Source of the DNA: an uncultured Bacteroidales bacterium
Lineage (GTDB): Bacteria > Bacteroidota > Bacteroidia > Bacteroidales > Bacteroidaceae
Assembly (NCBI GenBank): GCA_945836755.1
Contig: CAMAMB010000015.1
Span: 1 to 45,915, forward strand
Length of the DNA stretch: 45,915 nucleotides
Direction: 5' to 3'
Part shown: positions 11,240 to 45,915 of the stretch, in pieces
How positions within the stretch are numbered: position 1 is the first letter of the stretch
Layout of the letters: each line of letters begins with the position of its first letter
Notes under the pieces: generated by a model
The model's input: the letters and a program-made list of their open reading frames with translations, nothing else
Told to the model about the DNA's origin: nothing
Databases searched by the model: none
Made by a program: the position numbers and the translations under genes

Positions 11240-11332
11240 CGTCAAGTGGTTTCGGCCGACGCCACATCTGTTTTCGACCGAAACCACATCTGTTTTCGGC
11301 CAGAACCACATCTGTTTTCGGCCGAAAACCAC
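11240..11332. repeat. 22-base direct repeat array A (purB-lpdA spacer)
   Basis: Three good units start at 11262, 11284 and 11306, each beginning CCACATCTGTTTTCG and containing a near-palindromic TTTTCGGCCGAAA core. A degenerate unit (14 of 22 matches) precedes them at 11240-11261, and a final CCAC begins the next. Spacing is 22, 22 and 23 bases. The array lies about 130 bases upstream of the predicted purB transcription start. Confidence 0.9.
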
Positions 11333-11690
11333 TCACTGCAATGCTTGCAGCAACGGCGGAACCCACTTCCATGACAGTCAAAAGGCATGGAGAAACGCAG
11401 AGTCGACTGGCGGTGAAGAAGGAAGGCCCTGCACCCGCAGGCCGAAGGCAGACAGACCCGAGGCTGCAGGGAGAAGACAGCGCCCCACCCTACCCCCTGC
11501 TGACGAAGAAAGGCGGGCGGCAGCAGACAATCAGTCTACAGCCGTCCGCCCCTATCAAGGAACGTCGCAGATCAGAGGGAACATCAATTATAGCCGCCCC
11601 CGGGGCTTATGGTAAAGGCAGCAAGGCTTGAGAGAAAAGGCAACAGCCAGCATGCCGCCTCTGCGTCCGGGCGACAGAAGACACCTTACT
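11333..11690. other. spacer between lpdA and the 22-base repeat array
   Basis: No credible gene was found; the frames that are open here have no recognisable protein character. It holds the lpdA terminator hairpin at 11512-11550. A shorter CCCTGCA/TGCAGGG inverted repeat lies nearby at about 11428-11471. Confidence 0.6.
11512..11550 (-). terminator. terminator hairpin of lpdA
   Basis: GGCGGGCGGC (11512-11521) pairs with GCCGTCCGCC (11541-11550) with one wobble, and an inner CAGAC/GTCT pairing extends the stem. On the minus strand it is followed by TTTCTTCGTC. It lies about 140 bases past the lpdA stop, so it is rather distal. Confidence 0.6.
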
Positions 11691-13046
11691 CTACGCCTCG
11701 GCAGCGTCGAGGTATATTTCAGAGAGCGTGGGATGGGCATGAATGGTCCGGAGAATGTGCTCGACCGTGGCTTTGCAACTCATCCACGCCGTGGCTTCGT
11801 GTATCAGTTCTGAGGCTCCTGGCCCCATGATGTGAGCACCGAGCAAAGTGCCGTCGGCTCCAACGAGCAGCTTAAAGAAGCCTTCCATGCCTGCATCCAT
11901 GGTCAAGGCGCGCCCATTGGCCCGATAGAAAGCCTTGCGGACACTGAACTCGCGTCCCTGCTCCTTGACCTCCTTCTCTGTCAGTCCGACAGAGGCTGCC
12001 TCCGGGTGGGTATAGAGACAAGCGGGCAGAATGTGCATATCCGTCTGCTCCTCGTGACCGAGTATGTGGGCCAGGGCCTTCTTGCCCTGGAAGGTGGCTA
12101 CATGGGCCAGTTGGATGCCTCCGTTGACGTCGCCTATGGCATAGACGCCGGGGCAGGATGTGCGGTAATGCTCATCGACGATGATGCCACGTTTGCCGAC
12201 CTCAATGCCGGCCTTTTCGAGTTGGAGACCATCGGTGACAGGTTCGCGCCCAACGGCCATCAACACTTTGTCGGCCACGATGCTGTCTTCTTTTCCTTTG
12301 AGCGTGAAGGCCACACTAAGTGACCCGTCAGGCAAGGTGTGGATGCCGGTGACCGGGGCATCGGTCACAATGCGGATGCCTTGCTTCTTGAGCGCAGGCT
12401 TCAAGCGGCGCGAGATGTCGGTGTCGAAGGTCGGGGCGATCTCACTGCCGTATTCCACCACGCTAACCTCGCAACCGAAGGCGCTGAATACGGAAGCAAA
12501 CTCCAACCCTATCACGCCACCGCCCACTACGCAGAGACGACGCGGCAGCTCGGTGAGACGGAGGATGGTGTCGGAAGTCAGAACGCCTTCAGCATCGACG
12601 CCTTCGACCGGAAGCAGACGAGGCCGCGAGCCGGTGGCAATGATGACGGCATCAGCCGTGAGAGTTTCATCGCCCACGCAGACGGTACGCGGCTGAGAGG
12701 GATGGAAGGTAGCCCGACCGGGATGGAAGTGAACGCCGGCCCCTTTAAGCAAGGCCTGTATGCCGGCTTGCAGTTGGGAGATGATGCCGTCTTTTCGTTC
12801 GATGGCAGCAGCCAGGCTGAAGGTGGACATGTCGGCTTTCACTCCATAGCCGGCGGCGTCGGCTGTATGGCGTAATACCTCAGCCGTATGGCAGAGAGCC
12901 TTGGTGGGTATGCATCCCTGGCAGAGACAGGTGCCTCCGAGCTTCGACACATCGTCAATGAGGTGAACCTCACACCCGGCTTTGGCAGCAGCGACGGCAG
13001 TGGGGTATCCGCCCGGGCCGGCGCCCAGAATGACAATACGTTTCAT
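11691..13046 (-). CDS. lpdA: dihydrolipoyl dehydrogenase (glycine cleavage L-protein)
   Basis: The 451-residue FAD disulfide oxidoreductase re-oxidises the dihydrolipoyl arm of H-protein with NAD+. It starts at ATG 13046 (MKRIVILGAGPGG, the FAD-binding GxGxxG). An upstream in-frame ATG at 13106 would add 20 hydrophobic residues and run into the preceding terminator hairpin, so I reject it. The redox site is GGTCLCQGCIPTKAL with Cys40 and Cys45, and an unusual extra Cys at 42. VVGGGVIGLEFAS is the NAD site. HPTLSE near the end carries the catalytic His-Glu pair. It follows gcvPB by 98 bases, but a terminator lies between them, so it may be transcribed partly on its own. Confidence 0.95.
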   Translation of the reverse strand: MKRIVILGAGPGGYPTAVAAAKAGCEVHLIDDVSKLGGTCLCQGCIPTKALCHTAEVLRHTADAAGYGVKADMSTFSLAAAIERKDGIISQLQAGIQALLKGAGVHFHPGRATFHPSQPRTVCVGDETLTADAVIIATGSRPRLLPVEGVDAEGVLTSDTILRLTELPRRLCVVGGGVIGLEFASVFSAFGCEVSVVEYGSEIAPTFDTDISRRLKPALKKQGIRIVTDAPVTGIHTLPDGSLSVAFTLKGKEDSIVADKVLMAVGREPVTDGLQLEKAGIEVGKRGIIVDEHYRTSCPGVYAIGDVNGGIQLAHVATFQGKKALAHILGHEEQTDMHILPACLYTHPEAASVGLTEKEVKEQGREFSVRKAFYRANGRALTMDAGMEGFFKLLVGADGTLLGAHIMGPGASELIHEATAWMSCKATVEHILRTIHAHPTLSEIYLDAAEA

Positions 13047-13089
13047 AGAAAGGATAAGAAAGGATAGAACGAAAACGAGGATAAAGAAA

Positions 13090-13131
13090 GGAGGGGCTAT
13101 GCCCATGCCGCGGCAAGCGCATAGCCCCTCC
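13090..13131 (-). terminator. terminator of the gcv genes
   Basis: GGAGGGGCTATGC (13090-13102) is the exact reverse complement of GCATAGCCCCTCC (13119-13131), with a GC-rich nested loop. On the minus strand it is followed by TTTCTTTATCC. It lies about 14 bases past the gcvPB stop and before lpdA, so it should end or attenuate transcription between them. Confidence 0.85.
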
Positions 13132-13144
13132 GAAAGTGAGTAAC

Positions 13145-14647
13145 TTATTGTGGCTGAGGAGGCGTATAGGTAAACTTGGCGTCCTTAACAGCCTTGACAT
13201 CGTCGGGCAGGCGCACGGGAGTGGTGTGCGGTGCTGTGTGAAGGAGTTCCGGTGTGTCGTGGGCCTCCTTGGCTATCTGCTTCATAACCTCAATAAAGCG
13301 GTCGAGGGTTTCGAGGCTTTCGGTCTCGGTGGGCTCTATCATCATGGCTTCATGGTAGAGCAACGGGAAGTAGATAGTAGGTGCATGGAAGCCGAAGTCA
13401 AGTAGGCGTTTGGCTACTTCTAAGGTGCGGATGTGCGAGGCATCATGGTGAGCGCCTCCATACTCCTCGCGCAGTCCGTCGAACACAAACTCATGCTTGC
13501 AAGGCACGTCGTCGATGGGCAGGTCGTAGAAGTCTTTCAGACGTTCACGAATGTAGTTGGCATTGAGTACAGCCATGGTGCCGGCTTCTGCCATGCCTTC
13601 GCTGCCGAGCGAGAGGATGTAGGCGTAGGCTCGTATCAGGATGGCGAAGTTACCCAGGTGGGGAGTAATCTGACCGAGACCCTTGGGGTTGAACACCTGC
13701 CGATAGAGGCCGGTCGCAGCGTCGAACTCCACCTGAGGATTAGGCAGGTAGCACTCCAGACCGGCACGAACACCTACCGGGCCTGCGCCGGGACCGCCGC
13801 CGCCATGAGGGGTGGAGAAGGTCTTATGTAGGTTGATGTGCATGACATCAAAGCCCATATCGCCGGGGCGGCAGACGCCGAGACAGGGGTTGAGGTTGGC
13901 ACCATCGTAGTACATGAGGCCGCCACAGGCATGTACCATCTTGGAGATGGCAGGTATCTGTGTCTCGAAAAGGCCGAGGGTGTTGGGGTTGGTCATCATC
14001 ATGCCCGCCACGTCGTCGCCGAGAAGCTCACTGAGAGAGTCGAGATCGACAGTGCCTTGCGGGGTGCTCTTCACCTCTACCACTTGCAGGCCACATACGG
14101 CTGCGGAAGCGGGATTGGTGCCATGGGCGGTGTCGGGTATGAGTATCTTGGTGCGCTTGGTGTCGCCTCGGTCAAGATGGTAGGCGCGTATGAGCATCAA
14201 GCCGGTAAGTTCGCCGTGGGCGCCGGCATAAGGATTGAGGGTGAAGCGGCTCATTCCTCCAATCTCTGAGAGAGCTTTCTGAAGCTCATCGTACAAGCGG
14301 AGTGAACCTTGGGAGCAATCATCGTCCTGGGCAGGATGTAACTCAGTGAAGGCCGGGAGAGCTGCCAGCTCCTCATTGATTTTGGGATTATACTTCATGG
14401 TACAACTGCCTAAGGGATAGAAGCCTGTGTCTACACCAAAATTGTTGTTACTCATATTGGTATAGTGGCGGGCCACGGTGAGTTCGTCAGCCTCAGGGAG
14501 CAGAGAGAGCGGCGCGGTGCGTTTCAAAGTCTGAGGCAGCCCGTCCACGCTAAAGGCATCGCCCCAAGGAGAGGCGGGCAGCGAATAACCCTTACGGCCG
14601 GGACGCGATAGCTCAAATATCAAGGGGGAATAATGTGTGCTGTTCAT
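13145..14647 (-). CDS. gcvPB: glycine dehydrogenase (decarboxylating) subunit 2
   Basis: The 500-residue C-terminal half of P-protein binds PLP and, with subunit 1, decarboxylates glycine and passes the aminomethyl group to lipoyl H-protein. The PLP site is DVMHINLHKTFSTPHGGGG with the Schiff-base lysine at about residue 275. PDTAHGTNPASA and YYDGANLN are further family motifs. The split P-protein (separate PA and PB) is the form found in Bacillus, Clostridium and many anaerobes. The N-terminus (MNSTHYSPLIFELSRPGRKG) matches the usual subunit 2 start. It is separated from gcvPA by 100 bases containing a large hairpin, and is followed by a terminator. Confidence 0.97.
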   Translation of the reverse strand: MNSTHYSPLIFELSRPGRKGYSLPASPWGDAFSVDGLPQTLKRTAPLSLLPEADELTVARHYTNMSNNNFGVDTGFYPLGSCTMKYNPKINEELAALPAFTELHPAQDDDCSQGSLRLYDELQKALSEIGGMSRFTLNPYAGAHGELTGLMLIRAYHLDRGDTKRTKILIPDTAHGTNPASAAVCGLQVVEVKSTPQGTVDLDSLSELLGDDVAGMMMTNPNTLGLFETQIPAISKMVHACGGLMYYDGANLNPCLGVCRPGDMGFDVMHINLHKTFSTPHGGGGPGAGPVGVRAGLECYLPNPQVEFDAATGLYRQVFNPKGLGQITPHLGNFAILIRAYAYILSLGSEGMAEAGTMAVLNANYIRERLKDFYDLPIDDVPCKHEFVFDGLREEYGGAHHDASHIRTLEVAKRLLDFGFHAPTIYFPLLYHEAMMIEPTETESLETLDRFIEVMKQIAKEAHDTPELLHTAPHTTPVRLPDDVKAVKDAKFTYTPPQPQ

Positions 14648-14672
14648 GGTTGGCGTAATTGTGAAGTCATGG

Positions 14673-14730
14673 CGTTTTCTGAGAACCGGCCCTACGGGAA
14701 GAACGCCCTATGGCCGGCAGGTAGAAAACG
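14673..14730 (-). other. large intercistronic hairpin between gcvPA and gcvPB
   Basis: CGTTTTCT (14673-14680) pairs with AGAAAACG (14723-14730). Inside, CCGGCC pairs with GGCCGG and GGG with CCC around a seven-base loop, giving an extended interrupted stem. It occupies most of the 100-base gap. It has no terminator-like T run, so an RNA-processing or stability element is possible. Confidence 0.55.
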
Positions 14731-14747
14731 GCGTAAGAACCGAAGGG

Positions 14748-16076
14748 TTATTGCTGTATAAGCCGGAGGAAGCGCTGAACCTCGTCTGGAGTGCGACGCT
14801 CGGTGGCGGCGAAGGTGATACAATCTGGCTCGCCCTCTGTGACGACACCGGCCAGGAAGCCGGCCTTCGCCATGCGCTGACGGAGCGCGGGGACGCCCTC
14901 CTCGCCAAGGAAACGAAGGGTAAACTCATTGACGAAGGGCTTTCCGGGAAAGGCTTCAGCAAAGAGACCGGTATTCACCAAAGCATCGTGAAGGCTATGG
15001 GCAGCCGCGTAAGACTGGTCGTTCACCTCCTTCAGCCCCTCCGGCCCCATGAGCGAAAGGTAGATAGCTACCCACAGACACATGATGCCCTGTGCAGTGC
15101 ATATATTGGAGGTGGCCTTTTCACGACGGATATGCTGCTCACGAGCCTGCATGGTGAGCACGAAGCAGCGCCTACCATCTGCATCGGTGGTTTCGCCTAC
15201 GAGGCGCCCGGGCATCTTGCGCACCAACGCCTTCTTGACACACATGTAGCCAATATATGGGCCACCGAAGTTGAGAGGTAGTCCGAGACTTTGGGCATCG
15301 CCACAGGCTATGTCGGCACCCCACTCGCCTGGACTCCGCAAAACGGCCAACGTAGAGGCCACGGCATTGACAGCGAGAAGAGCCCCGGCAGCATGAACCT
15401 CATCGGCAAGCCCGGTAAGGTCTTCCACAATGCCGAAGCGGTTGGGCTGCGCCACAATGACGCCGGCTACGTCGCCCCCGCTGAGAGCAGCGGTTATCTC
15501 AGCACGGTCGGTAACGCCATCTTGATGGCCTATGACATGCACCTCTACTCCATGGTAATGGGCATACGTCTGCACCACCTGCCTAACCTCCGGCAGAAGG
15601 GTGGATGACACCAGCACTTTCTTCCTGCGTTTAGAAGCAGCCACCATCATAAGCATCGCTTCAGCCGTGGCTGTAGCCCCGTCATACATGGAAGCATTAG
15701 AGATGTCCATGCCCGTAAGTCGGGCCATCATAGTCTGATACTCAAAGATGTAAGCCAGCGTACCCTGTGATATTTCAGCCTGATAGGGGGTGTACGAAGT
15801 GGAGAACTCGCTGCGAGAAGTAATGTAGGGGATCAGGGAGGGGGTGTAGTGGTCGTAAGAACCTGCACCGGCAAAGGGGACAAGCACCTTGTTCTGGGCG
15901 GCCATCTCACCTACAATGCGACGTACCTCTATCTCACTCTGAGCGGAAGGAATGCCAAGCGGCTGTTTCAGCTTCAGCTCCTCGGGTACTTCAGCGTAGA
16001 GGTCCTCTACTTTGTCCACACCAATGACAGCAAGCATCTGGCGAATATCCTCTGTCGTATGGGGAATGTATTTCAT
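14748..16076 (-). CDS. gcvPA: glycine dehydrogenase (decarboxylating) subunit 1
   Basis: The 442-residue N-terminal half of P-protein, partner of GcvPB in glycine decarboxylation. It begins MKYIPHTTEDIRQMLAVIG, the standard start of this subunit. It contains GAGSYDHYTPSLIPYITSRSEFSTSYTPYQAE, quoted here only as the family block at about residues 69-100. Other motifs are SNASMYDGATATAEA and GGPYIGYM. Full length for the family. It lies 36 bases after gcvH and is clearly in the same transcript. Subunit 1 has the fold but not the PLP lysine, as expected. Confidence 0.97.
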   Translation of the reverse strand: MKYIPHTTEDIRQMLAVIGVDKVEDLYAEVPEELKLKQPLGIPSAQSEIEVRRIVGEMAAQNKVLVPFAGAGSYDHYTPSLIPYITSRSEFSTSYTPYQAEISQGTLAYIFEYQTMMARLTGMDISNASMYDGATATAEAMLMMVAASKRRKKVLVSSTLLPEVRQVVQTYAHYHGVEVHVIGHQDGVTDRAEITAALSGGDVAGVIVAQPNRFGIVEDLTGLADEVHAAGALLAVNAVASTLAVLRSPGEWGADIACGDAQSLGLPLNFGGPYIGYMCVKKALVRKMPGRLVGETTDADGRRCFVLTMQAREQHIRREKATSNICTAQGIMCLWVAIYLSLMGPEGLKEVNDQSYAAAHSLHDALVNTGLFAEAFPGKPFVNEFTLRFLGEEGVPALRQRMAKAGFLAGVVTEGEPDCITFAATERRTPDEVQRFLRLIQQ

Positions 16077-16112
16077 GGCAAGTATGATTAAGAGGAGACA
16101 ATGAAGCTGCGA

Positions 16113-16490
16113 CTACTGGCAGAGCTTACCATAGTCGGCTGCGGAAAGCAAGGCGTCAAGCTCGGAAGGGTCTGAGAGTTTCACCTTGATAATCCAGCTG
16201 CCAAAGGCATCTTTGTTGATGAGTTCAGGCTCATCCTCTAAGGCTTCGTTGACTTCTACCACTTCACCACTTACGGGGGAGATCAGATCGGAGGCAGCCT
16301 TGACACTCTCAACTGCGCCAAAGTCTTCGCCGGCAGTCACGTCGTCGCCTACTTCAGGCATATCGACATATACCACATTGCCTAACTGGTCTTGGGCGTA
16401 GTCGGTGATACCTACGTAGCCATACTCACCCTCCACTTTAACGAACTCGTGGCTCTCACTGTAATAGAGGCCTTCAATAACTTGTGACAT
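16113..16490 (-). CDS. gcvH: glycine cleavage system H protein
   Basis: The 125-residue lipoyl carrier shuttles the aminomethyl group from P-protein to T-protein and electrons to L-protein. ESVKAASDLISPVSG contains the lipoylated lysine at residue 64, the standard place. YSESHEFVKVEGEYGYVGITDYAQ at about 10-33 and the C-terminal IIKVKLSDPSELDALL are typical. It lies 36 bases before gcvPA. The 156-base gap upstream to gcvT includes a GAGGC/GCCTC hairpin at 16616-16646 directly after the gcvT stop. Confidence 0.97.
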   Translation of the reverse strand: MSQVIEGLYYSESHEFVKVEGEYGYVGITDYAQDQLGNVVYVDMPEVGDDVTAGEDFGAVESVKAASDLISPVSGEVVEVNEALEDEPELINKDAFGSWIIKVKLSDPSELDALLSAADYGKLCQ

Positions 16491-16646
16491 AATGATTGGA
16501 TAAATGTTAGTTGATTTTCTGTGATACTAAATGGATATAGATTAGATAGATGCTGCTTCTACTCAAGAAGAGACCGAAGAGGAATATCAGGTGTTGAGTG
16601 TGAAGACAGCAACATGAGGCAGCCCTTAGAAGGGGACGTGAGCCTC

Positions 16647-17738
16647 TTACTTCTTATAATGCTTGTCGTAGAAACGTTTCTTGGTAACCACACCCTGGTG
16701 TAACTTGCGGTGAATACGGACCTGCACCGGCGTACCCAGCTTGGCATAGGCTGCATCTATAAGCGCCATGCAGACACTCTTGCCGGTGGATATGGAGTTA
16801 TACCCGGTGGTGACAGCGCCTATCACTTGCCCGTCAACCTCAACGTCATAGCCGTGGCGAGGAATGGCACGTCCTTCCAGCTCGATGCCAACGACCTTGC
16901 GGGTTACCCCCTCAGCCTTCTGCTTAGCCACAGCCTCCTTGCCAATGAAGTCAGCCTTGTCTAATTTTACAAACATGCCAAGCCCGGCCATTATGGGAGA
17001 AATATCATCGGTCAGTTCGTCACCATAGAGAGGAAGCCCTACTTCAAAGCGGAGCGTATCACGACAACCCAAGCCACAAGGCAAGGCACGTTTTGACGCA
17101 ATAAGTGCCGCCCAAGCCTTCTGAATATAATCATGAGATCCATAGACTTCAAAACCATCTTCGCCGGTATATCCAGTGCGACTGATTATCAGGGTTTCTC
17201 CATCTACGGTGAGAGTCTTAAAGGTATAGAAAGCCAATTCTTCACAAGGCAGGTGAAGAACTTCCTGCATGACCTTCTCTGCCTCAGGGCCTTGAATGGC
17301 AAGCTGGCCATAGTCGTCGCTCTGGTTAGTTAAGTGGGCATCAAAGGAAGTGATATGTTGCTGCATCCATGCAACGTCTTTGTCGATGTTCGCAGCATTG
17401 ATGACAAGGAAGAAAACGTCATCGGCCATCTTATAGACCAAGAGGTCATCCACAGTGCCCCCCGTAGGGTGGAGCATCATACCATAATAGATTTTACCAA
17501 TAGGCGCGTTTGCCACGTCATTGGTGAAGATGTACTGGACGTACTTCTCAGCTTCAGGGCCCGTAATGAGGACCTCACCCATGTGGCTGACATCAAATAC
17601 TCCGCAGGCTCCGCGTACTGCACGATGCTCCGCCGCAATATCGGTATAGAGAATAGGCATTATGAAACCGCCGAAGGGTTCCATCTTGGCGCCGAGAGCT
17701 ACATGGGCGTCATAGAGACATGTTTTCTTGTCTGACAT
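16647..17738 (-). CDS. gcvT: aminomethyltransferase (glycine cleavage T protein)
   Basis: The 363-residue enzyme transfers the one-carbon unit from the lipoyl arm of H-protein to tetrahydrofolate, releasing ammonia. Motifs include MPILYTDIAAEHRAVR, CGVFDVSHMGEV, SRTGYTGEDGFEVY, and the C-terminal barrel with DKADFIGKEA and GYNSISTGKSVCMALID. Length matches bacterial GcvT. The gaps to lplA upstream (139 bases) and gcvH downstream (156 bases) are wide for an operon, but no TAnnTTTG promoter was seen in either. I saw no glycine riboswitch by eye. Confidence 0.96.
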   Translation of the reverse strand: MSDKKTCLYDAHVALGAKMEPFGGFIMPILYTDIAAEHRAVRGACGVFDVSHMGEVLITGPEAEKYVQYIFTNDVANAPIGKIYYGMMLHPTGGTVDDLLVYKMADDVFFLVINAANIDKDVAWMQQHITSFDAHLTNQSDDYGQLAIQGPEAEKVMQEVLHLPCEELAFYTFKTLTVDGETLIISRTGYTGEDGFEVYGSHDYIQKAWAALIASKRALPCGLGCRDTLRFEVGLPLYGDELTDDISPIMAGLGMFVKLDKADFIGKEAVAKQKAEGVTRKVVGIELEGRAIPRHGYDVEVDGQVIGAVTTGYNSISTGKSVCMALIDAAYAKLGTPVQVRIHRKLHQGVVTKKRFYDKHYKK

Positions 17739-17877
17739 AGTGTACTTAGTATTAGATGGTCAAGAGATTATATTATTTGAAGAGGTGGGTCACACTTAAC
17801 GCCCTAACCCCCACAAGGGGCACGTAGTGAGAGGATTATACATCAATCTTATAGGGTCGTTGAGTCATTGGTCATAT

Positions 17878-20089: not shown

Positions 20090-20115
20090 AAGTTCTTTAA
20101 TAGATATTTATGTGG

Positions 20116-20145: not shown

Positions 20146-20206
20146 CTATCCGACGCGGGTTTTTAATTACAAACCATAATCTACGACACATAGTGCAGGA
20201 ACGACA

Positions 20207-29144: not shown

Positions 29145-31394
29145 CTACTGAAGTTGCAAACGCTTGGAGGCTCTGACGAGGTGGCGGGCTATGCTCATCA
29201 ACTCCTGGGTCTCTTGGAGTGTAGAGAGATAGAGCAAACCAATTTTGATATTGCTTTCCTCGCGTTGTATGCGGTCTTGTTGTTGATGGCGTATCTGTGA
29301 GATACGGCTCTTGATGGCATTGCCTTCCACGAGCAACTCGTCCACGTTGTCGAAGTTGCCGGTGGTAATCATCTGATGTGCTCTTTCCAGGAAACGGTCC
29401 ACGTCGTTGCATACAGGGATAAGCTCGTCAATGTAGCTCTGAGGCATGGGCGAGAAGTTGTTGTCCACGTGCTCTAAGCAGGGCTCCAACATACGTTTCA
29501 GGCCATATATTATCTGCGTGATGCTGTTACACCCTAAATGGAACCAGGTATTTTTCTCGACAGCCTGCATGTAGTCTATCTTGCGCATACCTAGGATTTC
29601 CTTTCTGCGGTAACGCTTCCAGGTACTCTTCTCCTCGTCGATGGCGCCGGTGGCTGCACGTAGCTCTTTCATGTTGTCGTGCATGAGGCCTTGTGTGATG
29701 TGTCGGAAGGTTTCGCGAGTGAAGACCAGGGCATTGCCTTGTGTATTACGCACATGCTCCAATAGCAGTTCCCAGACCTTCGCCTTATCGTGGGTGCGTA
29801 CAATCTGCCTGAAGAGGGTATCGACATTCTCTTCTGAAGCCTTCTGCTTGAATTTGCGGTTGTTGTTGATGATGACAGCGGCCACGGTACATACCACGAA
29901 TACCATTGCCACCAGTCCGCCCCAATGGTTGAGTGTGGCAATGAGGAAGCTCACAATGAGCGCTGCTCCTGCGGTAATAAACCATCCGCCGATGACGGAG
30001 ATAACGCCGGTGATGCGGTACACCGCAGTCTCACGACCCCATGCGCGGTCAGCTAACGACGAACCCATGGCCACCATGAAGGCCACATAAGTAGTGGAGA
30101 GGGGGAGTTGGAAGGTTGTACCTATGACAATGAGAAGGCCGGCCAGCACGAGGTTGACAGCGGCACGCACTTCGTCGAAGGCAGCGCCTTCTTCGAGAAT
30201 GACATCCTCGTTATCGAAGCGCTTGTCTATCCATCGCGCCACGCAGGCCGGCACGAAGCGGCCCACTGCTGAGGTAATGTTTAGCACGCCACGCACAGTG
30301 CGTCTTGCTATCCTCGACGAACTGAACACTTCTTCACCTTCGTCTTGACGCGAGAGGTTGACAGTGGTCTCTACCACCTTATGCGCCTTCTTCGAGGTGC
30401 AGATGGCGGTGGTCATGATGATGCCGGCGCCTATCAAGAACCATTGCTTGCCGGGCAGCGTACTCTCACCGGCCAGAACACTTACTATATAGTGGTCGGC
30501 ACGCTGGCCGGCTCCATTGGCCGTAAAGTCTAAGAACGACTCCAAACCAGCCAGCGGCGTACCGATGAAGTTTACAAGGTCATTGCCGGCGAATGCCATG
30601 GCTAAGGCGAACGTACCGAAGAGCACGACTATTCTGAAAATGTTGACCTTCAGCAGGTGAAGCACCTCCATCAAGAGCGTGAAGCCCACGAAACTCGTCA
30701 GCAGGATGGCCAGCTTATGGCTGTCTATCCACGCGGGCGTCCACCCTATGTAGCCGAGCAGGCTGCTGTTCTTTAACCCGCTCACTAAGAGGAAGTAGAA
30801 GATGCTCGTCACACCGATACCGCCGAAGATGGCTACGCTGTAGCGCAGATGCTTGCGGTACTCGAACGTGAAGACCACGCGGGTAATCCACATCACCACC
30901 AAACCTACCACAAAGGCGATGGCCACGGACAGGAAGATACCGATGATGACACTCAGCGCCTTGTCCGTATTGATTAAATCGGCATAAGTGAGCCCGCTAC
31001 CCATAATCTTGGAGAGAGCCAACGCCGTACTGCCTCCCAGCAAACCGAAGACCATGGAGACGGTGGTCGAGGTGGGCATGCCGAGGGTATTGAAAATGTC
31101 TAACAAGATGACATCGGTGGCTGCTACGGCCAGGAAGACGCACATCACATCGTCTAACGTGTAGTACACAGGGTTGAGAATGCCGTGGCGGGCAATGTCC
31201 ATCATGCCACTCGATGTGCTCGCGCCTACAAAGATGCCTATGGCGGCTACAAGGAGTATGATACGGAACTTGGCGGCTTTGGCACCTACTGCAGGGCTCA
31301 GAAAGTTTACTGCATCGTTGGCCACGCCTACACTGAGGTCAAACACCGCCAGCACTATTAGGAATACCAATATTCCTAAATAAAAGAAGTCCAT
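29145..31394 (-). CDS. PiT-family inorganic phosphate transporter with large C-terminal cytoplasmic region
   Basis: The 749-residue inner-membrane permease takes up phosphate with a cation. The N-terminal half has the PiT signature GVANDAVNFLSPAVG near residues 23-37, and a second, inverted copy appears as FAGNDLVNFIGTPLAG. Many hydrophobic helices extend to about residue 510. The last ~230 residues are hydrophilic and helical (FKQKASEENVDTLFRQIVR, and a closing run of charged helices), reminiscent of the PhoU-like regulatory extension seen in other Bacteroidales PiT proteins. A full promoter lies at 31548-31578. Phosphate uptake is consistent with the pyrophosphate-based energy metabolism here, though that link is only inference. 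Confidence 0.93.
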   Translation of the reverse strand: MDFFYLGILVFLIVLAVFDLSVGVANDAVNFLSPAVGAKAAKFRIILLVAAIGIFVGASTSSGMMDIARHGILNPVYYTLDDVMCVFLAVAATDVILLDIFNTLGMPTSTTVSMVFGLLGGSTALALSKIMGSGLTYADLINTDKALSVIIGIFLSVAIAFVVGLVVMWITRVVFTFEYRKHLRYSVAIFGGIGVTSIFYFLLVSGLKNSSLLGYIGWTPAWIDSHKLAILLTSFVGFTLLMEVLHLLKVNIFRIVVLFGTFALAMAFAGNDLVNFIGTPLAGLESFLDFTANGAGQRADHYIVSVLAGESTLPGKQWFLIGAGIIMTTAICTSKKAHKVVETTVNLSRQDEGEEVFSSSRIARRTVRGVLNITSAVGRFVPACVARWIDKRFDNEDVILEEGAAFDEVRAAVNLVLAGLLIVIGTTFQLPLSTTYVAFMVAMGSSLADRAWGRETAVYRITGVISVIGGWFITAGAALIVSFLIATLNHWGGLVAMVFVVCTVAAVIINNNRKFKQKASEENVDTLFRQIVRTHDKAKVWELLLEHVRNTQGNALVFTRETFRHITQGLMHDNMKELRAATGAIDEEKSTWKRYRRKEILGMRKIDYMQAVEKNTWFHLGCNSITQIIYGLKRMLEPCLEHVDNNFSPMPQSYIDELIPVCNDVDRFLERAHQMITTGNFDNVDELLVEGNAIKSRISQIRHQQQDRIQREESNIKIGLLYLSTLQETQELMSIARHLVRASKRLQLQ

Positions 31395-31578: not shown

Positions 31579-31808
31579 GCCTTATTTCAGAGTTTTTAAG
31601 GATAAGCTACTTTTTTGCTAAATATAGGCTACGATCTTCCTGCCTGCACTCTCTTCATCTCCACCTTAACGGACGTTCGCGGAATGCATGGTGACCGCAT
31701 CCTAGCGGGAAATATTGCCGAAATCCATCCGCAACGAGCCAGAAGGGGGTGTACAGCCGCCCGTTCTTGGATATACACCCGGCCATCGTCGTTCATATTG
31801 AAGACGAG

Positions 31809-31940
31809 CGTACACCAATCAGGCGACGAGTGTACACCAAGCAGGCGACGAGCGTACACCAAGCAGGCGACGAGTGTACACCAAGCAGGCGACGAGTGTA
31901 CACCAAGCAGGCGACGAGCGTACACCAAGCGGTCGACAAT
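31809..31940. repeat. 22-base direct repeat array B (transporter-helicase spacer)
   Basis: Five complete units start at 31809, 31831, 31853, 31875 and 31897, and a degenerate sixth starts at 31919. Each reads (C/T)GTACACCAAGCAGGCG followed by ACGAG, and the only regular variation is C or T at the first base. TACA motifs at 31752 and 31774, also 22 bases apart, may be decayed earlier units. There are no spacers between units, so it is not a CRISPR array. Confidence 0.93.
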
Positions 31941-32268
31941 AGCCACATGTACGGGGAGACACAGCGGAAATGCACTCCACATGGTAGGGGAGGCAGACTG
32001 TAACGTACCGAATGGGTGAAAGGGCAATGACAATGGCTCAAATAACGCGTATTCATCGACTAATAGTCTCTTATCTATTTTCAGGATCCTCTGTTTCCAT
32101 CGTCAGCAAATAACCAAGGCACACGGCGATAGTGATGGGTAAGAATGGACCTTATATCAATACATCAAAAGGCTATGAACATAGGCCAAAATGGTCGAAT
32201 AAGGCGATTTAACCCCGGCCGGAAGCATGTAATGAAGAGCCGGCCGCCGTAGGCTCGCCAAATAATTG

Positions 32269-32328: not shown

Positions 32329-33672
32329 ATGTTGTCAAACTACGCCCTTTATCTTTCGCGCATAGGCATCAGCAGCCCGGTGGCCACACAGACCGCTTTC
32401 TGGGAAGCCTCCCCGCGCGAAGGTGGGCTGATGTTGTTAGCTCCCACCGGCAGTGGCAAGACAGTGGCCTTCATGCTGCCACTGATTGAGGCTGTCGACG
32501 CTTCAAGCCCCACACTGCAGGCTGTGGTTATAACGCCCACACGCGAATTGGCCCGTCAGCACCTTCAAGTCATAAAGCAAATGCAGACGCCGATAGCCTC
32601 AGTAGCTCTGCATGGTGGTCGATCGGTGGCCGAAGAGCAACGGACGCTCCAAGGACGCCCGGTGCAAGTGGTCTTTGCCACCCCAGGCCGTCTGACCGAC
32701 CATCTGCGTGCAGGCTCACTCTCCGGAGAAACGGTGCGCTTGCTCGTAATTGATGAGTTTGACAAATGTCTGTCCTTGGGTTTTCACGATGAAATGGGCG
32801 ACATAGTAGCTTCCGTACCGGCAGTTAGCCGGCTTTGGCTCACGTCGGCCACGGAGCTTCACCCACTGCCCCGTTTTGCGGCCCGCGCCATGACAGAATG
32901 GTACACGCTGAACTTCCTTGAGGCACAACGCGAGGTGCTGGGACGCATGGAGATTACCGGCATTGCCGTGGAAGAAAAACAGAAAAAAGCCCTGATCCAT
33001 CGACTTTTATTGACGCTTGAAGACAAACAAAGTCTCGTCTTTGTGGGACAACGCGCCACAGCCGATGACCTATACGCCTACTTGAAAGCGAAGGGTCACA
33101 GTGTCGTCTGCTACCACGGCGGTCTCGCCCAGGAACGACGCCAGAGCGCCCTCTTTGCCTTCCGCTCAAAATCTACTCTAACAATGATATGTACAGACCT
33201 GGGTGCAAGAGGTTTAGACTTTGAACACGTAGCTTCTGTCATACACTACGACGCACCGGAGAGCCAGGAAGACTTCACCCACCGCTGTGGCCGCACAGCC
33301 CGTTTTGATGCCACAGGCACGGTATATCTGCTGGTTACACCTTCAGAGATCAGTGAAACCGCCGTGCCCTTCCCCTTCCGGACGATACCGGCGACCAACC
33401 TTCCTGAACCACCATCCGCCACATCGCCACAGCCGGCACCCTACGGTCTGCTCTATGTGAGTGGCGGCAAACGCGATAAAATAAGCAAGGGCGACCTTGT
33501 GGGCTTTTTTTGCCGCAGTGCAGACCTTCAGGCCGATGCGGTGGGCCTTATCGAAATAGCGGCCGACCATAGCTTGGTAGCTGTGAAACGCGAATGGATA
33601 CCTACGGCCATTACCCGCGCCGATGGCGGCAAAGTGAAAAAGCGCAAGGTGCGTGTCTTTACCCTTCAGTGA
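32329..33672 (+). CDS. DEAD-box RNA helicase with DbpA-like C-terminal RNA-binding domain
   Basis: The 447-residue helicase has motif I APTGSGKT (38-45), PTRELARQ, ATPGR, motif II as DEFD (143-146) rather than DEAD, motif III TSAT, TDLGARGLDFE, and motif VI HRCGRTAR. The last ~75 residues (LLYVSGGKRDKISKGDLVGFF onward) resemble the RNA-binding domain of DbpA/CsdA-type helicases, and the protein ends in a basic KKRKVR tail. In E. coli DbpA this domain targets 23S rRNA during large-subunit assembly. A similar role here is inferred. The Phe in motif II is a known kind of DExD variant, so activity is expected. It leads a plus-strand run. Confidence 0.92.
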   Translation: MLSNYALYLSRIGISSPVATQTAFWEASPREGGLMLLAPTGSGKTVAFMLPLIEAVDASSPTLQAVVITPTRELARQHLQVIKQMQTPIASVALHGGRSVAEEQRTLQGRPVQVVFATPGRLTDHLRAGSLSGETVRLLVIDEFDKCLSLGFHDEMGDIVASVPAVSRLWLTSATELHPLPRFAARAMTEWYTLNFLEAQREVLGRMEITGIAVEEKQKKALIHRLLLTLEDKQSLVFVGQRATADDLYAYLKAKGHSVVCYHGGLAQERRQSALFAFRSKSTLTMICTDLGARGLDFEHVASVIHYDAPESQEDFTHRCGRTARFDATGTVYLLVTPSEISETAVPFPFRTIPATNLPEPPSATSPQPAPYGLLYVSGGKRDKISKGDLVGFFCRSADLQADAVGLIEIAADHSLVAVKREWIPTAITRADGGKVKKRKVRVFTLQ

Positions 33673-38335: not shown

Positions 38336-38412
38336 CAGTCGTGTCCGGCCTCCCATCCATCATACAAGCCCTTCGTTACAAACAACCCGTATTCAACCAT
38401 ACCCAGCCCATC

Positions 38413-38964: not shown

Positions 38965-39022
38965 CCCCACTGCCTTCCTTCTCCACCTTACCCTCTCACT
39001 TTCACACATTCCCCCTACCACA

Positions 39023-40804
<1,782 letters not shown>

Positions 40805-40888
40805 CCTGCATACTACCAGACCAGGAGACCATACCACCCCTACCTCATAGAGAAGTATCTCCCTCTTCCATCAACTATTATAACAACC

Positions 40889-41566
40889 ATGCTCATACAG
40901 CTCACCAACGCCACGCTGCGACGTGGAGACAACACGCTCATATCTAATTTCGACTTCAAAGTTGACAGTGGCGAATTTGTATACATCGTCGGGAAAGTGG
41001 GCACCGGCAAGAGCTCACTACTTGCAGCCCTCTATGGCGAGCTACCCATACAGGCGGACGAAGCCAGCATATTAGACTTCAACCTCCTGCGTCTCAAGCA
41101 TAAGCATATACCCTCCCTCCGCAAGCGGTTAGGCATCATCTTTCAAGACTTTAAGCTGCTCAGTCACTTCACGGTGGGCCAAAATCTGGAGTTCGTGCTT
41201 CGTGCCACGGGATGGAAGAAAAAACTCCGTGCACAGCGCGTAGATGAGGTGCTCGGGCAAGTAGGACTTACCGATAAGTTGAATGCATACCCCCACGAGC
41301 TCTCAGGAGGCGAGCAACAGCGTGTCTGCATAGCGCGAGCCCTGCTCAACAACCCCGAGATTATTTTGGCCGACGAGCCCACCGGCAACCTTGACCCTGT
41401 TACCAGCAACGAAATCATGCAGATACTCCACCAAATCAGAGAGAGAGGGGCTGCCATCGTCATGGTCACACATAATCACTCCCTCTTGCAACATCATCCC
41501 GGCATCGTCTATCAGTGTGCTGAAGGGCATATGGCAGACATCACCTCGGTGGCGAAGGGAGAGTAG
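40889..41566 (+). CDS. ftsE: FtsE-type ABC transporter ATP-binding protein
   Basis: The 225-residue ATPase has Walker [10 protein letters not shown] (35-43), Q-loop IIFQDFKLL, signature LSGGEQQR, Walker [14 protein letters not shown] and an H-loop [20 protein letters not shown] matches FtsE, which with FtsX controls septal peptidoglycan hydrolysis. No ftsX is adjacent. Lys at the second position of Walker A (GKVGTGKS instead of GPSGAGKS) is common in the Bacteroidales form. lysC starts 64 bases downstream. Confidence 0.85.
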
Positions 41567-41630
41567 CATCATAGGAAGGGAATGCAGCCCCATCACCCCA
41601 ATCGAACACAACAACAAACACACATACACA

Positions 41631-42953
41631 ATGAAGGTTTTAAAATTCGGTGGCACCTCAGTAGGTTCACCCCAGCGCATGAAAGAAGTCTGTGACCTTA
41701 TCACAGACGGACAACAAAAGATAGTCGTACTCTCCGCCATGTCGGGAACGACCAATTCACTCGTGGAGATAGCCGACTACATCAAGAAGAAAAACCCCGA
41801 GGCCGCCAACAACGTAATCAACAAACTCAGCTCGCTCTACGTGCAGCACGTGGACAATCTCTACGAAGATAAAAGCCACGCCGAGAAGATACACACATAT
41901 CTCCAGGGCATCTTCGCACACCTTCACAACCTCACCACCGAAGATCATACCCCTTCTTTAGAAAAAGAAATTCTGGCCCAGGGGGAACTCATGAGCACAA
42001 ACATGGTCACGGCCCTGCTCCAGGAGCGAGGAGTCAAGGTCAAACTTATCGGTGCACTCCACTTCATGCGCACTGACGCCAATGGTGAACCCGACCAGAG
42101 CTATATCAAGAAACATCTAAAGGACATTCTTGCCCAACATCCCGACTACGACATTTACATAACACAGGGCTTCATTTGTCTCAACCACGAAGGACACACC
42201 GACAACCTTCAGCGAGGCGGGTCAGACTATACGGCTTGCCTTATCGGAGCTGCCCTTGTGGCCCAGGAGATACAGATTTGGACGGACATTGATGGCATGC
42301 ACAACAACGACCCTCGTTTTGTTCAAGGCACGCAGCCGGTGCGCCAGTTGAACTTTGAAGAGGCCGCCGAGCTTGCTTACTTCGGTGCCAAGATACTCCA
42401 CCCCACTTGCATCCAGCCTGCCAGGTATGCCGGGGTGCCGGTCCGCTTACTCAACACCATGGACCCCTCAGCCCCCGGCACACTCATAGACAATCACATG
42501 CAGTGGGGCACCATCAAGGCCGTAGCTGCCAAAGACGGCATCACCGCCATCAAGATAGTCAGCTCACGAATGCTCCTTGCCACCGGCTTCCTGAGAAAAG
42601 TCTTTGAGATTTTCGAAGTACACAAAACGCCTATCGACATGGTCACAACCAGCGAAGTGGGCCTCACCTTGACCATCGACAACAATAGCCGCCTCGCCCT
42701 CATCGTCGAAGAGCTCAAAAAGTATGGCACCGTGGAAGTAGACACCGACATGTGCATAGTATGCGTTGTCGGTGACCTCCGCTGGGAGAACGTCGGATAT
42801 GAATCACGCATCAGCGAGGCACTTGCCCAGATACCCATCCGTATGATCTCATACGGCGGCAGTGACCACAACATCTCCTTCCTCATTCGCGCCACAGACA
42901 AGGAGGCCACGCTCAAGGCGCTTAGTGCAAAACTCTTTCAAGCAAAGGCTTAG
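41631..42953 (+). CDS. lysC: aspartokinase
   Basis: The 440-residue enzyme phosphorylates aspartate, the first step to lysine, threonine and methionine. ATG 41631 is chosen because the catalytic motif VLKFGGTSVG follows at once; the frame upstream overlaps ftsE. Further motifs are GFICLNHEGHTDNLQRGGSDYTA and WTDIDGMHNNDPR. The C-terminal ACT pair (VVTTSEVGL-like and VGDLRWENVGYESRISEAL) suggests feedback control by lysine or threonine. lysA follows after 62 bases, pairing the first and last enzymes of lysine synthesis. Confidence 0.95.
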   Translation: MKVLKFGGTSVGSPQRMKEVCDLITDGQQKIVVLSAMSGTTNSLVEIADYIKKKNPEAANNVINKLSSLYVQHVDNLYEDKSHAEKIHTYLQGIFAHLHNLTTEDHTPSLEKEILAQGELMSTNMVTALLQERGVKVKLIGALHFMRTDANGEPDQSYIKKHLKDILAQHPDYDIYITQGFICLNHEGHTDNLQRGGSDYTACLIGAALVAQEIQIWTDIDGMHNNDPRFVQGTQPVRQLNFEEAAELAYFGAKILHPTCIQPARYAGVPVRLLNTMDPSAPGTLIDNHMQWGTIKAVAAKDGITAIKIVSSRMLLATGFLRKVFEIFEVHKTPIDMVTTSEVGLTLTIDNNSRLALIVEELKKYGTVEVDTDMCIVCVVGDLRWENVGYESRISEALAQIPIRMISYGGSDHNISFLIRATDKEATLKALSAKLFQAKA

Positions 42954-43015
42954 TGAAACCTACGGCCTCTGCCATCTACGCCCCAACCCATAAACTGACT
43001 ACAAACTTAACTACC

Positions 43016-44194
43016 ATGCAACTCCCCCAGTCACATCTTGCCCGGCTGACCACACCGTGTTACTATTATGATATGGCGCTGCTTCAGCAGACCCTTTCCG
43101 TCATCAACCGGGAAGCCGCCAAGCATCCTGCATTTCGGGTTCACTACGCCGTCAAGGCTAATGCCAATCCGCGCATCCTTCACCTGATAGCCGCTGCCGG
43201 CCTCGGCGCCGACTGCGTCTCAGGGGGTGAAGTGGCCACAGCTGTCAGCCACGGATTCAATCCCCAACAGGTGGTCTATGCCGGAGTGGGAAAGACAGAC
43301 CGGGAAATACGTGCGGCCCTTGACCTTAACATCGGCTGCTTCAATGTGGAGAGCCTCCCCGAGTTAGACGTGATAGCAGAACTCGCTGCGTCCGCCGGTA
43401 AGGTGGCCCACATCGCCTTCCGCGTCAACCCCAATGTCGATGCCCACACCCATGCCAAGATTACTACCGGGCTTAGTGAAAACAAGTTCGGCATAGCTCC
43501 CCAGCAACTCGTGGCCGCCATCCGGTACGCCAAGACCCTCCCCGCCATCCGGTTTGAAGGCCTGCATTTCCACATTGGAAGCCAGATTACTACCATGACA
43601 CCCTTCAAGCATCTTTGCGAGCGCATCAACGAATTGCAAGACGCGCTCGAAGCTGAAGGCATCTCCCTTCCATCCATCAATGTGGGCGGTGGCCTGGGCA
43701 TTGACTATGATGCCCCCATGGCCCACCCTATCCCCGACTTTGAAAGCTACTTTGAGACTTTCGCTACACATCTGAAGCTGCGCCCCTCACAGCTCGTGCA
43801 TTTCGAGCTCGGCCGTAGTGTGGTGGGGCAGTGTGGCTGCCTTCTTGCCACCACCCTCTATGTCAAAGAAGGGCTTGCCAAGCGGTTTGTCATTGTCGAT
43901 GCCGGCTTTACCGACCTCATTCGTCCAGCTATGTATGGTGCCCACCACTTTACCCTTAACCTCACTGCCGAAACGGACCAGCGCGCCCATGACGCGGACG
44001 CCGCCTCCTGGAAGGCCGACATCGTGGGCCCCATCTGCGAAAGCAGCGACGTGTTCAGTACTGACGAGCTGCTCAAGCCCACTCACCGCGGCGACGTCAT
44101 CGCTTTCCTTAGTGCCGGAGCTTATGGAGAGGTCATGGCCTCCACCTATAACTGTCGGACCTTGCCCACCGCCTACTTCAGCGACAATATCTGA
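43016..44194 (+). CDS. lysA: diaminopimelate decarboxylase
   Basis: From ATG 43016 the product is 392 residues. It decarboxylates meso-diaminopimelate to L-lysine with PLP. VHYAVKANANP holds the PLP lysine (Lys47). The fold III barrel shows HFHIGSQ, NVGGGLGIDY, FELGRSVVGQCG and the C-terminal PICESSDVF with the catalytic cysteine at the dimer interface. The frame is open from a GTG at 42953, but those extra 21 residues have no family similarity. The intrinsic terminator is unclear: only a short CCCTC/GAGGG pairing lies downstream near 44228-44262. Confidence 0.96.
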   Translation: MQLPQSHLARLTTPCYYYDMALLQQTLSVINREAAKHPAFRVHYAVKANANPRILHLIAAAGLGADCVSGGEVATAVSHGFNPQQVVYAGVGKTDREIRAALDLNIGCFNVESLPELDVIAELAASAGKVAHIAFRVNPNVDAHTHAKITTGLSENKFGIAPQQLVAAIRYAKTLPAIRFEGLHFHIGSQITTMTPFKHLCERINELQDALEAEGISLPSINVGGGLGIDYDAPMAHPIPDFESYFETFATHLKLRPSQLVHFELGRSVVGQCGCLLATTLYVKEGLAKRFVIVDAGFTDLIRPAMYGAHHFTLNLTAETDQRAHDADAASWKADIVGPICESSDVFSTDELLKPTHRGDVIAFLSAGAYGEVMASTYNCRTLPTAYFSDNI

Positions 44195-44489
44195 CCACAG
44201 CCCCGACGACCTGCACACTTCTAAGGTCCCTCATCGCCTACTCGCCGGTCACTGAGAGGGTCGCAAGGCCCGTAATCACACGGTCACATCAGCCTTGCCA
44301 CCCCCTCAAACCATATAGATATATCAATTACGCAAGGATATACCGCACACTTTATAAATAAATGTGTACCTTTGCCACCTCAAACGCAAAAGAGTAGTAA
44401 AAGGCACACGGTTCGGGCAGCCCCCTCTGCTGTCGTTGCAATGAGAGGCGTAGCCTCGCGAGTGTAGCCGCTCTGTAAAAGTTTATACA
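44195..44489 (+). promoter_or_regulatory. spacer and structured leader upstream of the sphingolipid gene
   Basis: It holds a TACCTTTG -7 element at 44367-44374 and then a leader of about 110 bases. A perfect GAGGC-GTA-GCCTC hairpin and partly complementary GTAGCC/GGCTAC-like pieces lie within 44440-44480, shortly before the ATG. No gene was found. Confidence 0.55.
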
Positions 44490-45680
44490 ATGGGTATTTT
44501 ACAAGACAGACTATCTAAGTACACCCTACCGCAAGAATACAAGGCCAAGGGCGTGTATCCTTATTTTCGTGCCATTGAAGGCAAACAAGGTACCGAAGTA
44601 GAAATGGGCGGTCATCATGTGCTCATGTTTGGTTCGAACGCATACACCGGCCTCCCGGGCGACAAGCGCATCATTGAGGCAGGCATCAAGGCCATGGAGA
44701 AATATGGCAGCGGTTGCGCCGGCTCACGCTTCCTAAATGGCACACTCGACCTTCACCTCCAGTTAGAGAAGGAGCTTTCTGCGTTTGTAGGAAAGGAAGA
44801 CGCCCTGTGCTACTCCACCGGATTTACCGTCAACTCGGGCGTCATTTCGTGCCTGACAGGTCGTGAAGACTATATCATCTGTGACGACCGTGACCATGCC
44901 TCCATCGTAGACGGCCGTCGCCTTTCATTCTCCACCTGTCTGAAATACAAGCACAACGACATGGCTGACCTTGAGCGTCAGCTACAGAAGTGCAGTCCCG
45001 AGAGCGTCAAGCTCATTGTGGTGGATGGCGTATTCTCCATGGAAGGCGACTTGGCTCCCCTCCCAGAGATAGTCAGTCTCAAACACAAGTACCCCGGCGT
45101 AGCCATCATGGTAGATGAGGCACATGGCTTAGGCGTGTTTGGCCGTCAAGGTCGCGGCGTGTGCGACCACTTCGGCTTGACCGACGAGGTAGACTTGATT
45201 ATGGGCACCTTCAGCAAGTCGCTCGCTTCCATCGGTGGCTTCATTGCTGCAGACGAGAGCATCATCAACTGGCTGCGCCACAACTCCCGCACCTATATAT
45301 TCTCTGCCTCAAACACACCGGCTGCCACAGCCTGCGCCCTCGAAGCGCTCCACATCCTACAGCAGGAGCCCGAACGCATTGAGGCCTTGTGGGAAGTAAC
45401 ACGCTATGCGCTCAAGCGCTTCAAGGAAGAGGGCTTCGAGATAGGCGACACGGAGTCGCCCATCATACCGCTCTACGTCAGAGATACGGAGAAGACCTTT
45501 GTAGCCACAGCCCGCGCCTTCGATGCCGGTGTCTTCATCAACCCCGTCATACCGCCGGCCTGCGCCCCCCACGATACCCTCGTGCGCTTCGCACTGATGG
45601 CCACACACACCAAGGAGCAGGTTGACAGAGCTGTAGCTGCCCTCAAGAAGGTGTTCCAGGAGCTGGAGATCATCAAGTAG
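44490..45680 (+). CDS. spt: serine palmitoyltransferase (alpha-oxoamine synthase)
   Basis: The 396-residue PLP enzyme condenses an acyl-CoA with serine to give 3-ketosphinganine, the first step of sphingolipid synthesis in Bacteroidales. EMGGHHVLMFGSNAYTGL, YGSGCAGSRFLNGT, CDDRDHASIVDGRR (His136), VDEAHGLGVFG (Asp209) and GTFSKSLASIGG (Lys243, Schiff base) are all present. AOS relatives include glycine C-acetyltransferase (Kbl) and KAPA synthase. The N-terminus (QEYKAKGVYPYFRAIEGKQGTEVEMG) and the IPPACAPHDTLVR block match what I know of Bacteroides and Porphyromonas Spt more than Kbl. It has its own promoter and strong terminator. Confidence 0.88.
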   Translation: MGILQDRLSKYTLPQEYKAKGVYPYFRAIEGKQGTEVEMGGHHVLMFGSNAYTGLPGDKRIIEAGIKAMEKYGSGCAGSRFLNGTLDLHLQLEKELSAFVGKEDALCYSTGFTVNSGVISCLTGREDYIICDDRDHASIVDGRRLSFSTCLKYKHNDMADLERQLQKCSPESVKLIVVDGVFSMEGDLAPLPEIVSLKHKYPGVAIMVDEAHGLGVFGRQGRGVCDHFGLTDEVDLIMGTFSKSLASIGGFIAADESIINWLRHNSRTYIFSASNTPAATACALEALHILQQEPERIEALWEVTRYALKRFKEEGFEIGDTESPIIPLYVRDTEKTFVATARAFDAGVFINPVIPPACAPHDTLVRFALMATHTKEQVDRAVAALKKVFQELEIIK

Positions 45681-45812
45681 TTCCCCCCTCCACGTCCTCC
45701 CCCGGGCGGCAATGAGCTCCCGATCCTCATAACCACCCGCCGGAAGGAACACACATAAATGGCCAGCCCCTCCATCCCACACATAGGGAGCCATCGGCCA
45801 CTGCCTATCAGG

Positions 45813-45863
45813 AAAAACTCCAAGCATTCCCGTAAAAACTGGAATGTTTGGAGTTTTTCTTAC
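45813..45863 (+). terminator. terminator of spt
   Basis: AAAAACTCCAAGCATTCC (45813-45830) pairs with GGAATGTTTGGAGTTTTT (45841-45858) with one G-T wobble and a 10-base loop, ending in a T run. The 22-base repeat array C starts immediately after it. Confidence 0.9.
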
Positions 45864-45915
45864 ATGTACATCTAAGTTTTCCTACATGTACATCTAAGTT
45901 TTCCTACATGTACAT
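45861..45915. repeat. 22-base direct repeat array C (cut by window end)
   Basis: Units start at 45861 and 45883, each TACATGTACATCTAAG followed by TTTTCC, and a third begins at 45905 and runs off the window. The right arm of the preceding terminator partly resembles the end of a unit (TTTTTCT). Confidence 0.88.

Follow-up and report, generated by a model that had tools for sequence, protein, structure and literature searches.

The 45,915-base contig CAMAMB010000015.1 of an uncultured Bacteroidales bacterium (assembly GCA_945836755.1; 2.25 Mb in 94 contigs, 85% complete), which was analyzed over its whole length (contig C15, hereafter the window), carries three intergenic tandem arrays, A, B and C, and these are very probably species-specific intergenic satellites of the constant-size, variable-sequence kind with units of 20–23 nucleotides (nt). 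Tandem Repeats Finder (TRF) gave a period of 22 for each of them, confirming the three arrays reported in an earlier note on this DNA (Table 1). The units follow one another head to tail, and no spacers of the CRISPR (clustered regularly interspaced short palindromic repeats) type were found between the units of A, B or C. The three arrays are samples of a genome-wide phenomenon.

To place them in the genome, 40 further stretches were combined with the window into a sample of 787,639 bases (~ 788 kb), which yielded 203 TRF rows at score 40. Counting non-overlapping arrays with a TRF score of at least 60 that lay between genes according to codon-model gene calls, we obtained 76 intergenic arrays, 56 of which had a period of 21 or 22 (period 22 in 41 and period 21 in 15); another eight period-21/22 arrays lay inside called genes. 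When the intergenic DNA was shuffled 20 times with its dinucleotides preserved, each shuffle produced 0–2 arrays, and one array of period 21/22 appeared over all shuffles; the arrays are thus far above chance expectation. The earlier note had stated that a genome-wide period distribution without a peak at 22 would refute its proposal of a common period; the peak is present, at 22 and also at 21, both here and in relatives, and the proposal survives together with its description of units that are unrelated between arrays and similar locally. The arrays of the genome grouped into clusters C (32 arrays, some 21-base E-type and other units being chained in), B (10), A (7) and D (7), plus many singletons, mostly of period 21/22. 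A single genome therefore holds several unrelated families of one unit size, and, like the 76 arrays of the sample, A, B and C are intergenic.

The length of the unit is held far more strictly than its sequence. Over families A, B and C, neighboring units were exactly 22 bases apart in 160 of 163 spacings, with ~ 3–5 substitutions per adjacent pair. In family C, the spacing was 22 in 106 of 108 cases, and the two spacings of 44 were each read as one mutated core; in family A, it was 22 in 31 of 32 cases, with one spacing of 21; and in family B, it was 22 in all 23. The substitutions per adjacent pair averaged 3.0 in C, 3.3 in B and 5.0 in A. The C cores used for these spacings were located by proximity alone (46 bases or less), and ten A and two B spacings (lengths 15, 28, 35, 49, 53, 68, 74, 99, 112 and 113) were set aside by judgement as lying outside the elements. 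The statement on insertions and deletions rests on the proximity spacings and on those of A and B, because the 27 C arrays whose units were aligned had been chosen for a gapless fit to the unit.

Family C has at least 86 unit matches on 33 contigs of this genome at an expectation value (E) of 1, a lower bound, since scoring covered 40 of 124 first-look candidates. In 106 units from the 27 TRF arrays, positions 5–12, which form the palindromic 8-base core ATGTACAT, are 96–100% conserved, compared with 83–98% at positions 1–4 and 56–89% at linker positions 13–22. The arrays contain 2 to 9 exact cores, some being cut by contig ends; by eye, they have no constant flank, and several come after the T-run of a terminator. 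Convergent gene pairs flank seven of 16 C arrays and 40 of 206 gaps in the background, a comparison made without a formal test and omitting 13 of 29 arrays that had no neighbor on one side. Folding of the C arrays is far stronger than that of shuffled sequences (mean z-score −6.8 against a dinucleotide null and −3.6 against a unit-permutation null, n = 27).

Terminator-like hairpins with AAGCAT/ATGCTT stems were observed in the window (45813–45858), near position 10085 of stretch L092 and near position 10890 of L108, with C units starting at the T-run; in the window, the T-run adjoins the start of array C. In L092, one lone C unit comes after the hairpin and may represent a seed (by eye). The intergenic DNA of this genome contains four AAGCAT..ATGCTT pairs, against a control mean of 0.2 and maximum of 2, which is too few for inference.

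Family A has the appearance of an 87-base element dispersed over the genome. At E 1, its unit matched 25 times, at 11 places; of 11 family copies, ten have four boxes and measure 86–87 bases, and the remaining one (L048) has three boxes and 64 bases. The copies start with GTGG and finish with CCAC or a variant, a pattern that is partly by construction, as the ends were found by searching for these words. Boxes at equal positions in different copies differ by 2.48 mismatches on average, against 3.01 for other positions in other copies and 3.18 within a copy, and this positional identity is significant (order-permutation p = 0.001; 10 copies, the three-box copy being left out). Such identity is expected if a finished element is copied to new sites and fits the dispersal of a completed four-box element. 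No target-site duplication was detected for this family, the only one tested (own mean 2.4, cross mean 2.2). The outer flanks pair clearly in four of the 11 copies, the window copy showing no clear left-right pairing; copy-specific pairing of the flanks was considered and discarded as not significant (p = 0.13 and 0.24). With their flanks, the 11 copies fold better than shuffles (z-scores from −0.9 to −5.9), and two of them lie inside low-scoring open reading frame calls. The gene context of both A and B copies is mixed.

For family B, 12 matches were found on eight contigs at E 0.001. Seven of nine copies have three units, and long arrays occur in L001 and L003; the window array has six 22-base units, GACGAG(C/T)GTACACCAAGCAGGC, with all five spacings exactly 22. 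By eye, the copies possess outer inverted arms, GCCATCGTCGCC..GGCGACGATGGC. A positional signal was absent in the seven copies tested, the two long arrays being left out (order-permutation p = 0.51), and units differ by 4.4 mismatches within a copy against 5.2 between copies, as expected if the units were copied locally. At five of the ten solitary intergenic ATGTACAT sites in the 788-kb sample, this C core stands at an outer end of a B-type element (by eye), and this sequence link between B and C is firmer than the ACA(T/C)C segment discussed below. A pattern search for B elements returned no matches, its gap probably having been set too short.

Another important question is whether anything beyond length is common to the families. 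The earlier note had proposed that the three units share an ACA(T/C)C segment, but 63% of shuffled triples likewise have a 5-mer in common when up to one position is left free, and the proposal is not supported. The presence of ACAYC in all three units has p = 0.0003 for a word picked after looking, and neither the D and E units nor seven of eight further units tested contain it. No short conserved word was found across the species: GTAC occurs in the B and C units and not in A, D, E or the eight further units tested. A universal palindrome was rejected, as dyad symmetry at p < 0.05 was limited to 13 of 57 units of this genome, all of family C; a few units of the relatives G021, G010 and G011 also show significant dyad symmetry. 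A genus-wide CTAC-N-GTAG grammar, prompted by units of the same three relatives, was ruled out by counts. A universal RNA fold was rejected as well: 40 non-C arrays of this genome average z −1.3 (−0.7 against the unit null), the five best-folding being family A, and five arrays of G010 fold strongly (z −8.1 and −4.6 against the dinucleotide and unit-permutation nulls). Neither a hairpin nor a palindrome accounts for the common period.

The same period recurs in relatives. Fifteen other genomes of the genus were sampled, at 20–210 kb each; the short contigs L123, L124, L262, L263, L266, L276, L277 and L279 and the hit-selected G021 stretches L111–L112 were excluded from the census, so that G003 and G056 count as unsampled. 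Period 21/22 was found in 34 of 64 intergenic arrays, with at least one such array in 12 of the 15 genomes; in G055 and G017, period 21 accounted for only one of five and one of six arrays, respectively. The unit sequences mostly differ from species to species. Among 58 genomes of the genus, the C unit is present in two, this genome and, in a diverged form, G021, and the A unit is present in this genome, with one further 23-base match at E 0.0099. Hence, the C and A sequences are species-specific, and other species carry other units.

A broader survey, in which coding arrays were kept in the counts, covered 80 named purB loci, nearly all from Bacteroidota by name. The best named purB matches, at about 70% identity, come from Prevotellaceae and Bacteroidaceae, in keeping with a placement in Bacteroidales. 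In 20 Bacteroidaceae/Prevotellaceae loci (grouped by hand, with one Muribaculaceae included and L193 left out), period 22 accounted for 11 of the 57 arrays reaching score 60, against 2 of 57 in the remaining 60 loci. Three of the 20 loci have 22-base arrays within 500 bases upstream of purB: L127 (9831–9889), L139 (9716–9810) and L150 (9620–9662), where arrays of other sequence lie 112–339 bases upstream of the gene. Array A is likewise located upstream of purB.

The arrays are the same in kind as a published, still unexplained class and are far more extensive than the window shows. A 2020 abstract by Subirana and Messeguer in J Bacteriol reportedly gives unit lengths of 22/44 and 52 nt. In a further paper by these authors (PMC8161180), bacterial tandem repeats of constant size and variable sequence have units of 20–21 or 52 nt, and repeats of 20–23 nt occur in individual species of many groups, with several families per species; the search setting was at least four repeats per array. 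The same paper points out that 20–21 nt equals two helix turns and proposes a protein polymerizing on DNA with stabilization of the nucleoid, or alternatively small RNAs. The earlier note had put the arrays forward as an undescribed system, a view that cannot be kept, as constant-size repeats, the two-turn remark and a nucleoid-protein proposal are already in print there. Our arrays resemble the repeats described there in being non-coding, 20–23 nt long, species-specific and divided into unrelated families of equal length, and in being scarce or absent in many species; they differ in that lengths 21 and 22 both occur, that 22-base families are dispersed, and that A and B have apparent element ends and near-fixed small copy numbers. 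No word beginning with "Bacteroid" appears in the main text of that paper, and a partial literature search, judged by titles and the starts of abstracts, found no report of 21/22-base arrays in Bacteroidales or Bacteroidetes. New here are the occurrence of the arrays across a probable Bacteroidales genus, the nearly exact spacing of units that drift in sequence, the core conserved in C, the dispersal of A, apparently as a whole element, and a relative without such arrays in the 200 kb sampled.

These data raise the question of why unrelated units share one length. We favor satellites of the constant-size kind whose length is fixed by helical phasing, and to this explanation as a whole we give an even chance. 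The fixed length would reflect a phasing constraint of two helical turns; most simply, each unit would be one site for a candidate dimeric DNA-binding, perhaps nucleoid-associated, protein, with neighboring sites bound cooperatively along a single helix face, and the word recognized would vary between families and species. The protein-phasing step taken by itself has, in our estimate, an even chance at best and perhaps somewhat less.

Several results weigh against helical phasing. Period-21/22 arrays were found neither in 200 kb of G004, a single-contig genome, nor in 40 kb of G044 or 20 kb of G057, and vital sites would be expected in every relative. The families have no dyad, fold or word that all of them share, and their gene contexts differ. 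A phase-smear test of decayed arrays was without power, and the end boxes may supply part of the positional signal of A. Moreover, the substitutions between neighboring units may predate array growth, so that insertions and deletions may also be scarce because of the choice of units that are copied.

An alternative is copying in fixed steps of 21–22 bases, by slippage during replication, by template switching or by a hypothetical enzyme, which would leave a functionless mutational signature in any sequence. This is unlikely: it suits the many unrelated singleton units alike only in length, the variation of arrays between species, the variable size of C arrays and the closer similarity of B units within copies, whereas selection or copying of whole elements is suggested by the held core and free linker of C and by the near-fixed copy numbers of A (four boxes in 10 of 11) and B (three units in 7 of 9). 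One conserved reader or copying machine in the genus, imposing a 21–22-base step on intergenic DNA of any sequence, is also unlikely, somewhat more so; if it existed, each species would make its own arrays to one common ruler, and the rest of the DNA between genes would carry a 21-base autocorrelation stemming from decayed arrays.

A residual periodicity of 21 bases is suggestive. With arrays masked, the intergenic self-match at lag 21 (f21) exceeded that at lags 18 and 24 in all eight genomes tabulated, G004 included, although in G011 barely so. In the genome of the window, f21 was 0.285 against 0.271 (lag 18) and 0.273 (lag 24), and in G021, it was 0.282 against 0.257 and 0.260; lag 42 exceeded lags 39 and 45 in five of the eight (this genome, G021, G043, G010 and G017). 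Coding DNA has a smaller lag-21 excess of its own, and leaked coding DNA adds to the signal at multiples of three. When intergenic DNA was limited to that with no open frame of at least 100 amino acids, the signal weakened (z 3.6 here, 8.2 in G021, 3.4 in G017 and 3.4 in G004; below 2 in G010, G011, G043 and G055), and with a limit of 60 amino acids, it was z 0.3 here and 4.1 in G021, little DNA remaining. These filters tend also to discard 21-base arrays, since such arrays keep frames open.

Could the arrays instead be the cargo of non-autonomous mobile elements, comparable to miniature inverted-repeat transposable elements (MITEs), BOX or BrickBuilt, with the period inherited within each family? 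The copies are numerous, A has its GTGG/CCAC ends (partly by construction), positional identity of boxes and folding with flanks, and B has inverted outer arms by eye; however, A lacks a target-site duplication, no Y1 transposase was matched in this 85%-complete genome (other transposases were not sought), and a period of 21/22 common to unrelated families and species is left unexplained, so that we consider this reading improbable. An origin of the type of repetitive extragenic palindromes (REP) and their associated tyrosine transposases (RAYT) was rejected, as no Y1 transposase was found here and the two Y1 matches found are in G004, itself without period-21/22 arrays in 200 kb. BrickBuilt of Porphyromonas gingivalis is described (PMC4596501) as a minisatellite MITE whose intergenic 23-nt repeats follow one another without spacers; one strain has 19 dispersed copies. 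Its leader and tail reach about 300 nt, its terminal repeats are IS5-like, and the paper also mentions tandem repeats of 22 nt in strain W83. The present arrays share with it the order Bacteroidales and dispersed, spacerless intergenic repeats with end sequences, and differ from it by a 22-base unit, the ~ 87-base size of A, the short arms of B and the lack of a constant flank in C; no shared long leader or tail was seen by eye in the A, B and C copies. In the BOX elements of Streptococcus pneumoniae, two end modules flank tandem middle modules (PMC3049150); BOX occurs more often than expected in gaps between convergent genes, a placement that C may share, and a transposon link has been proposed for it, unlike here, where none was seen.

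A function at the RNA level, with tandem hairpins ending or protecting transcripts, accords with the folding of the C arrays and of five G010 arrays well beyond shuffles, with the folding of A and with the terminator T-runs seen by eye before several C arrays. It appears very unlikely, given that the other 40 arrays fold so little (the best five being family A), that window array B occupies a divergent gap, and that a scan of the window against Rfam gave no matches at the gathering score. The notion of unrelated minisatellites with a period equal by chance, for which only the small number of arrays in the window speaks, can be practically dismissed; the period census (56 of 76, with shuffles near zero) already refutes it. 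The genus offers array-rich species, a single-contig relative free of such arrays in the 200 kb sampled and several families within one cell; with a core that is held while the linker varies and the spacing stays exact, the question of length is accessible to comparison and pull-down.

The arrays also bear on genome assembly. Of the 22 contig ends inspected, which belong to 12 of the 94 contigs, 13 fall in tandem arrays, although arrays occupy 1.4% of the sample; nine of these ends are in family C, one in a 21-base E-type array, and one each in arrays of 84-, 85- and 69-base units. The repeats thus seem to break up the assembly. A dispersed 84-base tandem repeat (AAAGATAGTGCAAGGCGAG...) was observed at L101:6042–6265, L103:15931–16136, L107:9869–10089 and L108:1–170, and units of 69, 73 and 74 bases, similar by eye, are present in G004, G057 and G017.

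The positions of the arrays and their neighbors in the window are collected in Table 1. Array A sits between a dihydrolipoyl dehydrogenase gene and purB, and array B in the divergent gap between the PHO4-family transporter and DbpA-like helicase genes.

Table 1 Arrays, flanking sequences and neighboring genes in the window
Feature	Position	Strand	Description
Left outer flank of A	11232..11245	+	AGGCATGCCGTCAA
Array A as 87-base element	11246..11332	+	Four near-palindromic boxes around TTTCGGCCGAAAA; linkers between boxes CACATCT/AGATGTG; ends GTGG..CCAC
Array A (TRF)	11250-11326		Period 22, 3.5 copies, score 113
Right outer flank of A	11333..11346	+	TCACTGCAATGCTT
Weak fourth 22-base array	11433..11478	+	TRF score 55, 2.1 copies
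PHO4-family phosphate transporter gene	29145-31394	-	
Left outer arm of element B	31783..31791	+	CCATCGTCG; degenerate in window copy; by eye
Array B	31803..31937	+	TRF period 22, 6.1 copies, score 228
Right outer arm of element B	31931..31952	+	Degenerate, then ACATGTAC; by eye
DbpA-like DEAD-box helicase gene	32329-33672	+	
Serine palmitoyltransferase gene	44490-45680		Upstream of array C
Terminator-like hairpin	45813..45858	+	AAAAACTCCAAGCATTCC..GGAATGTTTGGAGTTTTT; 3' of serine palmitoyltransferase gene; by eye
Array C	45855..45915	+	Units TTTTCCTACATGTACATCTAAG; TRF period 22, score 115; 2.8 copies, a truncated length, as the array runs off the contig end

Two further repeats were observed in the window. 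At 21–196, a 69-base tandem repeat lies in an open frame at the contig start, which may encode a BspA-like leucine-rich repeat protein, and at 766–845, an 8-base GGAAGAGA repeat has 9.6 copies, for which TRF gives a period of 24 as well.

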